Part shown: positions 36,663 to 40,965 of the stretch, in pieces
Numbering within the stretch: position 1 is the first letter of the stretch
How the letters are laid out: each line of letters opens with the position of its first letter
Assembly: GCA_902825995.1 (NCBI GenBank)
Contig: CADEDE010000011.1
Span: 1 to 48,097, forward strand
From: an uncultured Burkholderiales bacterium
Lineage (GTDB): Bacteria; Pseudomonadota; Gammaproteobacteria; Burkholderiales; Burkholderiaceae_C
Length of the DNA: 48,097 bases
Direction of reading: 5' to 3'
Position numbers and translations under genes: made by a program
The notes under the pieces: generated by a model
Database searches by the model: none
Told to the model about the DNA's origin: nothing
The model's input: only the letters and a program-made list of their open reading frames with translations

Positions 36663-36683
36663 CCTCGCGCAAGGCGCTTGCGC

Positions 36684-39600
36684 ATGGCCTTTGCCGCCGA
36701 CCGCCTGCTGGCAGCGCCGCGCCCCTGGCAGGCGTTCGCGATCACGCTGGCGGCCTATCTGCTGGCGGCGCGGCTGTCGCTGTTGCTGACCATTCCGCCA
36801 GGCATCGCTTCGCCGCTGTTCCCGGCGGCCGGGATCGGCCTGGTCGCGACCCTGGTCTGGGGCCGCGCGGCCTTGCCGGCGGTGCTGCTGGGCTCGGCCG
36901 GAGCCAACCTGTGGCACGCCGCATCGATGGCGCCCGTGGGCATGACGAATGGGGTGGTATCCGCGGTCATCGGCCTCGGGGCCGCGCTGCAGGCTGGGGT
37001 CGGCGCGGCGCTGATCAGGCGCTTCGTCGGCCGGCCCTTGTTGCTGGCCGAGCCCTTGCAGTTGTGGCGCTTCTTCACCCTGGGCGCTTTTCTCGCCAGT
37101 TGCATCAGTGCCAGCGTCGGCCTGGCGGCGCTCTGGGCCGCCGGCATCGTGAGCGCCGCCCAGGCCCTGCCGCATTGGGCGGCCTGGTGGGTCGGCGATA
37201 CGCTGGGCGTGCTGATCTTCGCGCCGCTGACGCTAACCCTGATCGGCCAGCCGCGTGAAGAATGGGCGCCACGCCGCGGACCGGTGGCGCTGCCGCTGCT
37301 GATGGTCACGCTGTTGATGGGCCTGGGCATTCGCCAGGTAATTCAGCTCGACGCACAACGCCAACGCCAGGCCTTCGAGCGCGAGGCCGAGGCTGCGGCC
37401 AACGCAGTGCAGGCGCGCTTGCTGCAACCCTTGCACGCGCTCGAAGCGATGCGCGGCCTGGTCAGCGAAACCGGGGTTCCCGATCGCGATGCCTTTCGGC
37501 GCGCCAGCGCACCCTGGCTGGTCGATCGCGGCGGCTTGCGCGCCCTGGGCTGGAACGAGCGGGTGGCGCGCCCCGATATCGCCGCCTTCGAGGCCCGCGA
37601 GCAGGCCCGTGGTCAGCCCGGCTTTCGCGTCTTCGATCGCCGTGACGCCGGCGTTCCTGTGGTCGGCGATGGCGATGCCCAGGTGATCCGCTTCATCGAA
37701 CCGCTGCAAGGCAACGCACAGGCCCTGGGTGTGAATGTGCAGTCGATTGCCAGCGGGCGCGCCGCCATCGCCCAGGCGGCGCGCAGCGGCGCGCCGGTGG
37801 CCAGCGCCGGCTTCAAGCTGACCCAGGGCGGTACCGGTGTGGTGCTGTACCAGGCGGTTTACCAAGGCCAGCCCACCACGGCCGCCGATCGCGTACCGGC
37901 ACAGCACGGGCTGGTCTTCGCCGCCTTGCAACTCGATGAGCTGCTGCGCAGCACTTCGGCCACGCGCTTGTCCTCGCTGCACCTGTGCCTTCTCGACAAC
38001 GATGCCTCTGCCGCAACGCGAATCCTGGCTGGCCCGCCGGGTTGCGACCAATTGAGCCCGTTCACACCCTTGCGTGTGGTGCCGATCGCGATCGCCGGCC
38101 GGCAATGGGATCTGCGTGTCTATTCGACCGCAGCGCTGGCGCCGAGCGCGGGCGCGACCTGGCCCTTTGCCTTGGTCGGGTTGCTGGGGGCGGCGCTGCT
38201 CGGCACGCTGCTGCTGATCGTCACCGGCCGCGCGCAACGCATCGAGGCGGCCGTGGCGCAGCGCACGGCCGAGCTGCAGCAGCGCAGCAGCGAACTGCAG
38301 GCCGAAATAGCCGAGCGCCAGCGCACCACCACGGCCTTGAGCGAAAGCCAGCAACGGCTGCGCAATATCCTCGACCATGTGCCGATCGGCGTGGCCTACA
38401 CCGACACCTGTGGGCGCATTCGCGAGGCCAACCCGAAGCTGCGCGAAATGCTCGACCGGCTCGACGGCCGGCTCGACGGCAGCCACATCGCCGATTGGCT
38501 GCACCTCGACGACCGCCAGGCCGAGGCCGATGCGCGCCAGCGCCTGCTGGCCGGCGATGTGCCGATGGCGCGCTGGCGCCTGCGCTGCCTGACTGCCGAC
38601 GGCCGCACCTTGTGGACCCAGGTCGGCGTCAGCGTGCTGCGCGACGCGCAGGGCGAGGCCCAGCGCATGGTCTGGGTGGTCGAAGACATCACCGAACACC
38701 TGGCCCTGGAAGAAGCGCAGCGTGCGCAGCGCGGCGCCGAAGCGGCGAACAAAGCCAAGAGCGAGTTCCTGTCGCGCATGAGCCATGAGCTGCGCACGCC
38801 GCTGAACGCGATGCTCGGGTTCTCGCAGTTGCTCGAACTCGACCGCCGCCAGCCGCTGGCGCCACACCAGATGGAGTGGACCGGGCAGATCCGCCACGCC
38901 GGCTGGCACCTGCTGCACATGATCAACGATACGCTGGATCTGGCGCGCATCGAGTCCGGCCACATCGAGCTCGACCCGCGCACGCTGGATCTGGCCGAAC
39001 TGGTGGCCGCCTCGGTGGCGCTGCTCGAGCACAACGCCGAAAAACGCGGCGTGCGCATCGACGTTCGTTTGGCCGATCGCGCCCGCAGCGCGGTCGGCGA
39101 TGCCACGCGCGTGAAGCAGATCCTGACCAACCTGCTGTCCAACGCCATCAAATACAACGTCGATGGCGGCCAGGTGAGCATCGCCAGCCGCCTGGCCGAC
39201 GACGCTCGCGTGGCGGTCGAAATCAGCGACACCGGCGCGGGCATGAGCTCGGCGCAACTGGCGCAGTTGTTCCAGCCCTTCAACCGCCTCGGCCGCGAGG
39301 GCGGGCCCGTCGAAGGCACCGGTATCGGCCTGGTCATCAGCCTGCGCCTGGCCGAACTGATGGCCGGCACGCTGTATGCCCAAAGCAGCCCCGGCACCGG
39401 CTCGACCTTCACCCTCGAGCTGCCGCGTGCAGCCGCACCGCTGCCGAGGGCGAGCCAAGACGACGACAACGAACAGGCGCTGCCCGCCGCCCATTACCGC
39501 CAGCGCGTCGTGCAGTACGTCGAAGACAACGAGACCAATGCCGAAGTCATGCGCGGCATCCTGGCGCTGCGTCCGCAGGTCAAGCTCGAGATCTCGGCGC

Positions 39601-39887
39601 TGGGCCTGGACGGCCTGTCGGCGATCCGCCAACGGCGGCCGAGCTTGATCCTGCTCGACATGCACCTGCCCGATATCGACGGGCTCGAGCTGCTGCGCCA
39701 TTTGCAGGCCGACCCCGAAACCGCCGACATTCCGGTGATGGTTGTCTCGGCCGACGCCACCGAGGCTCGCATCGCCGAGGCCATTGCCGCCGGCGCCACG
39801 CATTACCTGACCAAGCCGGTCAATGTGCCGCAGTTCCTGGCCGCCTTGGACGAGGCGCTTGAACAGCTCGACACCCTGTTCGGATAA
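36684..39887 (+). CDS. Hybrid sensor histidine kinase (MASE1-CHASE-PAS-HisKA-HATPase-REC)
   Basis: 1067-aa membrane kinase. Domain order by residue: MASE1-like membrane sensor (about 10-200); CHASE-type extracellular domain (about 217-485, with GNAQALGVNVQSIASGRAAIAQA); transmembrane helix (about 493-513); coiled coil; PAS (about 552-672, NILDHVPIGVAYTDTCGRIREAN); HisKA with H701 in FLSRMSHELRTPLNAMLG; HATPase (NLLSNAIKYN, DTGAGMS, GTGIGLVIS, to about 915); REC (about 942-1066) with D992 in LILLDMHLPD, and VVSAD and TKPV intact. All phosphorelay residues are present. No response regulator or phosphotransfer gene is adjacent. The start is the ATG at 36684, 21 nt after ychF. Ligand and output are unknown. 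Confidence 0.9.
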   Translation: MAFAADRLLAAPRPWQAFAITLAAYLLAARLSLLLTIPPGIASPLFPAAGIGLVATLVWGRAALPAVLLGSAGANLWHAASMAPVGMTNGVVSAVIGLGAALQAGVGAALIRRFVGRPLLLAEPLQLWRFFTLGAFLASCISASVGLAALWAAGIVSAAQALPHWAAWWVGDTLGVLIFAPLTLTLIGQPREEWAPRRGPVALPLLMVTLLMGLGIRQVIQLDAQRQRQAFEREAEAAANAVQARLLQPLHALEAMRGLVSETGVPDRDAFRRASAPWLVDRGGLRALGWNERVARPDIAAFEAREQARGQPGFRVFDRRDAGVPVVGDGDAQVIRFIEPLQGNAQALGVNVQSIASGRAAIAQAARSGAPVASAGFKLTQGGTGVVLYQAVYQGQPTTAADRVPAQHGLVFAALQLDELLRSTSATRLSSLHLCLLDNDASAATRILAGPPGCDQLSPFTPLRVVPIAIAGRQWDLRVYSTAALAPSAGATWPFALVGLLGAALLGTLLLIVTGRAQRIEAAVAQRTAELQQRSSELQAEIAERQRTTTALSESQQRLRNILDHVPIGVAYTDTCGRIREANPKLREMLDRLDGRLDGSHIADWLHLDDRQAEADARQRLLAGDVPMARWRLRCLTADGRTLWTQVGVSVLRDAQGEAQRMVWVVEDITEHLALEEAQRAQRGAEAANKAKSEFLSRMSHELRTPLNAMLGFSQLLELDRRQPLAPHQMEWTGQIRHAGWHLLHMINDTLDLARIESGHIELDPRTLDLAELVAASVALLEHNAEKRGVRIDVRLADRARSAVGDATRVKQILTNLLSNAIKYNVDGGQVSIASRLADDARVAVEISDTGAGMSSAQLAQLFQPFNRLGREGGPVEGTGIGLVISLRLAELMAGTLYAQSSPGTGSTFTLELPRAAAPLPRASQDDDNEQALPAAHYRQRVVQYVEDNETNAEVMRGILALRPQVKLEISALGLDGLSAIRQRRPSLILLDMHLPDIDGLELLRHLQADPETADIPVMVVSADATEARIAEAIAAGATHYLTKPVNVPQFLAALDEALEQLDTLFG

Positions 39888-40026
39888 GTTTGTACATACT
39901 ATCTTAAAATATAAGGCCAGATCGTTACACTCTGTCAGTGAGCCTTGGGGGACACTGTTGTCAGCACTCTTGCCATGAGAGTGCTAATATTTCGGAACTC
40001 CAGCTCACCGAGCCCGTCCAAAAGCT
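39888..40026 (+). promoter_or_regulatory. rpoH leader and promoter region
   Basis: 139-nt AT-rich island in an otherwise GC-rich window. It holds TTGTAC and TAAAAT/TATAAG-like elements near 39890-39915 and, nearer the gene, the CIRCE-like repeat with TAATAT beside it. Individual promoters could not be fixed with proper spacing, so only the regulatory region as a whole is called. Confidence 0.5.
39961..39987 (+). promoter_or_regulatory. CIRCE-like HrcA operator upstream of rpoH
   Basis: TCAGCACTC (39961-39969), a 9-nt spacer, then GAGTGCTAA (39979-39987). The CIRCE consensus is TTAGCACTC-N9-GAGTGCTAA, so the right arm is exact, the left arm differs at one base, and the spacer length is exact. 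CIRCE is bound by the heat-shock repressor HrcA. It ends 39 nt before the rpoH ATG, so HrcA would repress rpoH transcription. HrcA itself is not encoded in the window. Confidence 0.85.
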
Positions 40027-40965
40027 ATGAATGCCACTGCCATACCTGTCGCTTCCTCCGGACTGACCCTGCGCAATCCTTGGGCGTTGGTGCCGCCGAT
40101 CGGCAACCTCGAGGCCTACATTTCGGCGGCGCATCGGATTCCGCTGCTGACGCCGCAGGAAGAGGCCGATTTGGCACGCCGCCTGCGCCAGAGCGGCGAC
40201 CTCGAAGCCGCTGGCCGCATGGTGTTGTCGCATCTGCGCCTGGTGGTCTCGGTTTCGCGCCAGTACCTGGGCTACGGCTTGCCGCAGGGGGATCTGATCC
40301 AGGAAGGCAATGTCGGCCTGATGAAGGCCGTCAAGCGCTTCGACCCGGAACAAGGCGTGCGCCTGGTGAGCTATGCCCTGCACTGGATCCGCGCCGAAAT
40401 CCATGAGTACATCCTGAAAAACTGGCGCATGGTCAAGGTGGCCACGACCAAAGCCCAGCGCAAGCTGTTCTTCAACCTGCGCTCGATGAAGCAGGGTCTG
40501 AAGGCCGCTGCGGCCGAGGGCGATACCCACCGCGGCACGCTGAGCCCGAGCGAGGTCGATACGGTCGCGCACGCGCTCAATGTCAAGCGCGAAGAAGTGC
40601 TGGAGATGGAAATGCGCATGTCCGGCGGCGATGTGGCGCTCGAGCCGCAGACCGACAGCGACGGCGAAGAGAGCTACGCCCCGATCGCCTTCCTGGCCGA
40701 TGAGGCCAGCGAGCCCACGCGCGTGCTCGAAGCGCGCCACCGCGATGCCTTGTCGGGCGACGGCATCGGCCGCGCGCTCGAAGTGCTCGACGCACGCAGC
40801 CGGCGCATCGTCGAGGAGCGTTGGCTGAAGGTCAACGACGACAGTTCGGGCGGCATGACCCTGCACGAGCTGGCGGCCGAATACGGCGTCAGCGCCGAAC
40901 GCATCCGCCAGATCGAAGCGGCGGCGATGAAGAAGATGCGCGGCGCACTGCAAGAAGCGCGCTGA
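40027..40965 (+). CDS. rpoH: RNA polymerase heat-shock sigma factor RpoH (sigma-32)
   Basis: 312-aa sigma-70-family factor. Region 1.2/2.1 begins IGNLEAYISAAHRIPLLTPQEEADLARRL. Regions 2.2-2.4 are GDLIQEGNVGLMKAVKRFDPEQGVRLVSYALHWIRAEIHEYILKNWRMVKVATTKAQ (in parts), followed by the RpoH box QRKLFFNLR, the marker that separates sigma-32 from other group-3 factors. Region 4.2 carries the helix-turn-helix LHELAAEYGVSAERIRQIEAAAMKKMR. It directs transcription of chaperone and protease genes. The ATG follows a CIRCE-like operator, so transcriptional repression by HrcA may add to translational and proteolytic control. Confidence 0.97.
   Translation: MNATAIPVASSGLTLRNPWALVPPIGNLEAYISAAHRIPLLTPQEEADLARRLRQSGDLEAAGRMVLSHLRLVVSVSRQYLGYGLPQGDLIQEGNVGLMKAVKRFDPEQGVRLVSYALHWIRAEIHEYILKNWRMVKVATTKAQRKLFFNLRSMKQGLKAAAAEGDTHRGTLSPSEVDTVAHALNVKREEVLEMEMRMSGGDVALEPQTDSDGEESYAPIAFLADEASEPTRVLEARHRDALSGDGIGRALEVLDARSRRIVEERWLKVNDDSSGGMTLHELAAEYGVSAERIRQIEAAAMKKMRGALQEAR

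Follow-up and report, generated by a model that had tools for sequence, protein, structure and literature searches.

The window analysed here, a stretch of 48,097 nucleotides from an uncultured Burkholderiales bacterium, carries an open reading frame (40027-40965, + strand) encoding the heat-shock sigma factor sigma-32 (RpoH) of 312 amino acids, which was identified with the TIGR02392 profile (389.4 bits against a cut-off of 323.1). Upstream of it, at 39961-39987 on the + strand, an inverted repeat reads TCAGCACTC-TTGCCATGA-GAGTGCTAA. Compared with the CIRCE consensus used here, TTAGCACTC-N9-GAGTGCTAA, this operator (TCAGCACTC-N9-GAGTGCTAA) has a single mismatch, located in the left half, and a spacer of exactly 9 nt. 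The consensus scan of the window thereby bore out the preliminary description, which had reported a CIRCE with one mismatch and this spacer at the same position, ending 39 nt before the rpoH start codon; the ATG is indeed at 40027. No other match with up to three mismatches was present in the whole window, and 100 shuffles of it gave a mean of 0.02 matches.

The surroundings of the repeat were also inspected. A large hybrid histidine kinase with a receiver domain is encoded directly 5' of rpoH (36678-39887), and a related kinase ORF occupies this place in two other genomes of the genus (L046 and L054) and in a few named relatives, while FtsX-like or different neighbours were observed in other relatives. 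Grouping of the upstream ORFs at 125 rpoH loci gave many groups, the largest with 11 members, although this grouping is rough because some ORF calls are visibly in the wrong frame. The upstream gene was ruled out as the target of CIRCE, since the operator stays with rpoH while the upstream neighbours vary. A near-palindrome, AGTTTGTACATACT, is located at 39887-39900, about 60-75 bp upstream of CIRCE, and in L046, L054, L041 and L024, of the same genus, the corresponding place holds different near-palindromes, such as GTGTGCACAC (L046) and GTGCGCACAC (L054); such an element could be a further operator. Between the repeat and the start codon (39991-40026), no clear Shine-Dalgarno sequence was found ahead of the ATG, and the presumed leader holds a short GCTC/GAGC hairpin, whose folding is no better than that of shuffles.

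The right half of the repeat runs into a probable -10 element, TAATAT (39985-39990, + strand), which is preceded by TGC and would therefore be an extended -10; transcription of rpoH is thus predicted to start near 39997. The preliminary description had placed TAATAT beside the operator. The hexamer is present, but it shares the last three bases of CIRCE (TAA) and so overlaps the operator rather than adjoining it. A candidate weak -35 element, TCAGCA (39961-39966, + strand), lies inside the left CIRCE half, 18 bp before TAATAT, and agrees with TTGACA at three of six positions. A strict sigma-70 promoter scan of positions 39700-40200 returned nothing.

The preliminary description had proposed a search of the genome for hrcA and for other CIRCE sites, and both were found. 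The own assembly (2.82 Mb, 140 contigs) contains one hrcA match, with 304.4 bits against a curated cut-off of 197.2, and its product has both Pfam HrcA domains, PF01628 and PF03444, over the cut-off. Two CIRCE sites with up to two mismatches were detected in this genome, the one at rpoH and a second on another contig (C29) that precedes a GroES gene (Cpn10, 125.4 bits), whereas a third match (L003) has three mismatches. At this threshold, the whole-genome scan showed no CIRCE at hrcA itself. Since operators of this quality occur only before rpoH and groES, the predicted direct HrcA regulon consists of rpoH and groES(L). The hrcA profile search gave no match in the E. coli control genome, and to our knowledge E. 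coli has no HrcA.

Conservation of the repeat was analysed in 60 Burkholderiales genomes, the own included, of which 5 belong to the genus, 31 to the rest of the family and 24 to the rest of the order. An hrcA gene was detected in 59 of the 60 genomes and an rpoH gene over the cut-off in 58, the exceptions (G012 and G041) being left out of the locus comparison. CIRCE with up to two mismatches is present in 58 of the 60 genomes, and exactly two sites were found in 53. The rpoH regions of the 57 other genomes were taken; two loci that lie at contig ends with almost no upstream DNA (L038 and L265) were left out, and without L038 there were 56 readable upstream regions. In the alignment across the order that had been suggested for the repeat, CIRCE (up to four mismatches) was kept before rpoH in 55 of these 56 relatives, with no mismatch in 33 sites, one in 17, two in 4 and four in 1; L009 has one mismatch. 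The sole miss, genome G054 (L063), showed no CIRCE before rpoH, no hrcA match and no RpoE match. No CIRCE with up to two mismatches was detected anywhere in this genome, which has thus lost the HrcA and the RpoE input to rpoH together. Among the named relatives, represented by the best 80 rpoH loci of a longer list, of which one has almost no upstream DNA, CIRCE with up to two mismatches precedes rpoH in 78 of 79 loci; Allofranklinella schreckenbergeri (L297) is the single named locus of these 79 in which it does not.

The distribution extends well past the order. A sample of 140 genomes of the GTDB class Gammaproteobacteria (former Beta- included), nearly one per family, yielded 130 rpoH loci in 129 genomes, the own excluded; the locus of G172 scored below the curated cut-off, and 12 loci absent from the tblastn results were placed via known coordinates. 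CIRCE (up to three mismatches, within 450 bp upstream) was found at 94 of the 130 loci, and in the remaining 36 upstream regions the best match has at least six mismatches. Of the 98 class genomes in which hrcA was matched, a set that includes partial matches (4 of 106 hrcA hits were below the cut-off), 90 carry the operator at rpoH, as do 4 of the 31 in which it was not (Fisher p 1.1e-16). Against a perfect rule, eight of the 98 hrcA-positive genomes have no site at rpoH, and four of the 31 without detected hrcA have one. Some of the misses look like re-spaced or decayed operators, judging from an 8-nt spacer in G156 and a one-base loss in G126; the latter genome has no hrcA. The four sites without detected hrcA are those of L187 (G177, no mismatch), L189 (G073, one), L141 (G170, one) and L103 (G124, three), which may reflect either an hrcA gene absent from the assembly or a relic operator.

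In a phylum sample of 80 genomes (20 in the class and 60 outside), coordinates were compared by eye for sites with up to two mismatches. Of the genomes outside the class, 19 belong to a single family (f173). Among the matches listed, CIRCE adjoins an RpoH-family match in 8 of these, and no such pair was seen in the remaining 41 outside-class genomes. In 28 of those 41, CIRCE occurs elsewhere in the genome, and the link with rpoH is therefore not automatic where CIRCE exists. The preliminary description had mentioned a suggestion linking HrcA to rpoH in betaproteobacteria; the predicted link is not confined to that group and spans the GTDB class Gammaproteobacteria.

The overlap of operator and promoter was examined in an alignment of 227 rpoH CIRCE sites (1 from the window, 54 from the relatives, 78 from the named loci and 94 from the class; L009 is not in it). 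The window's CIRCE overlaps TAATAT, and in 183 of the 227 sites, bases past the right CIRCE half likewise form TAANAT, even though the strict scan lists no promoter in the window; this motif is kept at 124 of 133 Burkholderiales sites and 59 of 94 class sites. In contrast, TAANAT follows CIRCE at none of 22 non-rpoH comparison sites, which were hand-picked and all turned out to precede groES. The hexamer of the left half at an 18-bp spacer matches TTGACA at four of six positions in 174 and at five of six in 37 of the 227 sites. At 46 of the 227 rpoH sites the third base of the left half is changed from A to G, which raises the match to TTGACA, while the mirror change in the right half, which would break TAANAT, occurs at only 2. 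Taken alone, this asymmetry is weak evidence, because two groES sites with the right-half change also have the left one.

The classical groESL system has the same operator, presumably bound by the same repressor, and it is present before the own groES. At most of the groES sites shown, the left edge of CIRCE lies close to the end of a CTTGAAA- or CTTGACT-type promoter, as judged by eye; in loci L066-L077 and L208-L217 the promoter -10 usually lies just before the left half, unlike the rpoH layout. As an operator, the repeat in the window is by its sequence an ordinary CIRCE, and its location in the predicted rpoH promoter is what sets it apart. The fusion of CIRCE to promoters at rpoH, unlike the arrangement at groES, is apparently a new feature.

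A second promoter type was found at the operator in many relatives. The P3 promoter of E. coli rpoH depends on sigma-E. In Vibrio alginolyticus, RpoE is described as binding at rpoH in the available part of the report (PMC4890791). Using the motif GAACTT-N15-17-TCTNA with a threshold of at least 8 of 10 positions, a sigma-E-type match overlapping CIRCE was likewise detected at 64 of the 94 CIRCE-bearing class sites, against 4.4% of shuffles in which flanks and spacer were shuffled and the CIRCE halves kept, and at 75 of 133 Burkholderiales sites (the window counted in the total), against 3.6%. In the commonest class form TCTNA begins within the final two bases of the left half; the commonest Burkholderiales form is shifted 4 nt downstream and has an identical spacer length of 16 nt. 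At class sites the motif is found in 63 of 82 cases with RpoE over the cut-off and in 1 of the 12 remaining (p 7.5e-6), whereas none of the 22 groES CIRCE sites has a match of at least 8 of 10. These predicted promoters differ from the known sigma-E promoters of rpoH in overlapping CIRCE. The own genome has RpoE (262.1 bits), but a sigma-E promoter in the window, which has no such motif, was rejected (best 6 of 10 near CIRCE), and the remaining four members of the genus reach only 5 or 6 of 10 near CIRCE; the sigma-E part therefore describes relatives and not the window. The idea that each genome uses either the sigma-E motif or TAANAT was discarded, as no association was detected (Fisher p 0.49 for the class and 0.50 for Burkholderiales).

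Taken together, it is very probable that the repeat serves as an operator through which HrcA represses rpoH transcription, so that a shortage of GroE releases sigma-32 synthesis. The observations comprise the operator and its position, the hrcA gene, the conservation of the site, its covariation with hrcA and the conserved -10 that it overlaps; from them we infer HrcA binding, repression and the role of GroE as sensor. At normal temperature, active HrcA folded by GroE would sit on CIRCE and cover the TAATAT -10 element, so that little rpoH mRNA would be made. Misfolded protein would occupy GroE and leave HrcA inactive, and the two predicted targets, groES(L) and rpoH, would be derepressed together; sigma-32 would then activate the remaining regulon and increase the supply of other chaperones, and newly made GroE would restore HrcA and close the loop. 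The preliminary description had misfolded protein titrating HrcA, which departs from the Bacillus model, where GroE keeps HrcA active and is itself what misfolded protein titrates. The HrcA of Campylobacter jejuni is, going by a paper title, reportedly an intrinsic thermosensor (PMC8533110), and the sensing step may therefore differ.

Other explanations of the repeat were weighed against this model. A chance match has a negligible probability and was rejected, in view of the window shuffles, of dinucleotide shuffles of the class rpoH upstream regions, none of which (0/2600) reached three or fewer mismatches, and of the conservation in 55 of 56 relatives. It is also very improbable that the repeat works at the RNA level, through a leader hairpin that governs the stability of the rpoH mRNA or responds to temperature. 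The repeat can form a 9-bp RNA hairpin, and a transcription start upstream of CIRCE would place it in the leader, but a start after TAATAT would leave it untranscribed; moreover, the half sequences are conserved beyond their pairing and match the HrcA operator, and the presence of CIRCE tracks hrcA. The hairpin or thermometer was rejected because the repeat-bearing leader did not stand out in folding: 51 of 200 shuffles folded at least as well.

Somewhat less improbable, but still unlikely, is that HrcA binds the site and acts as a minor tuner, with sigma-32 mainly under translational and proteolytic control. Such post-transcriptional control by translation and proteolysis is well established for sigma-32 in E. 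coli. CIRCE also need not confer strong heat induction, since the accessible part of a rhizobial study describes some CIRCE-bearing groESL operons that respond weakly to heat (PMC3989490). However, selection for an effect is indicated by the persistence of CIRCE, with its overlapping -10, in many families and by its loss together with hrcA.

A wider reading, whose chance of being right we put slightly below even, is that throughout the class CIRCE and promoters form a single fused control element at rpoH, with dual input from HrcA and sigma-E. CIRCE would overlap the -10 of a sigma-E promoter, with TCTNA beginning in the left half, and both CIRCE halves would make up a housekeeping promoter of the form TT[A/G]GCA-N18-TAANAT, so that chaperonin shortage, via HrcA, and envelope stress, via sigma-E, would both act on rpoH at a single site. 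Such wiring would be ancestral to the GTDB class Gammaproteobacteria, and the derived state of E. coli would follow the loss of hrcA.

A study by Permina and Gelfand (2003) is said to deal with the HrcA/CIRCE and sigma-32 regulons of beta-, gamma- and epsilon-proteobacteria. In the portion of the open literature searched, no statement of an HrcA-rpoH link for beta- or gammaproteobacteria was found, and that study or regulon databases may list rpoH. Rodionov et al. (2004, PMC545781) had, in the part of the source available, already predicted CIRCE before rpoH as such for Geobacter sulfurreducens, at position -51 relative to the start codon. The operator, the target gene and the similar distance agree with the window, although G. 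sulfurreducens belongs to another phylum-level group and its hrcA-grpE-dnaKJ genes also have CIRCE, whereas the own genome has it only at rpoH and groES; the available part of that paper (PMC545781) mentions no overlap with a promoter. We thus tentatively regard the breadth of the CIRCE-rpoH link, its covariation with hrcA and the fusion with promoters as new.

These sequence comparisons support control of rpoH by HrcA in the window, and they suggest that cells use chaperonin supply to time the making of their main heat-shock factor. Textbook accounts of sigma-32 control derive from E. coli. Should most of the hrcA-retaining families of the class gate rpoH through HrcA, the gene of the main heat-shock sigma factor would there be under HrcA control itself, and GroE supply would rank above sigma-32. 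In many relatives the fusion of a sigma-E-type promoter with CIRCE would give envelope stress and cytoplasmic stress a concrete, testable point of convergence.
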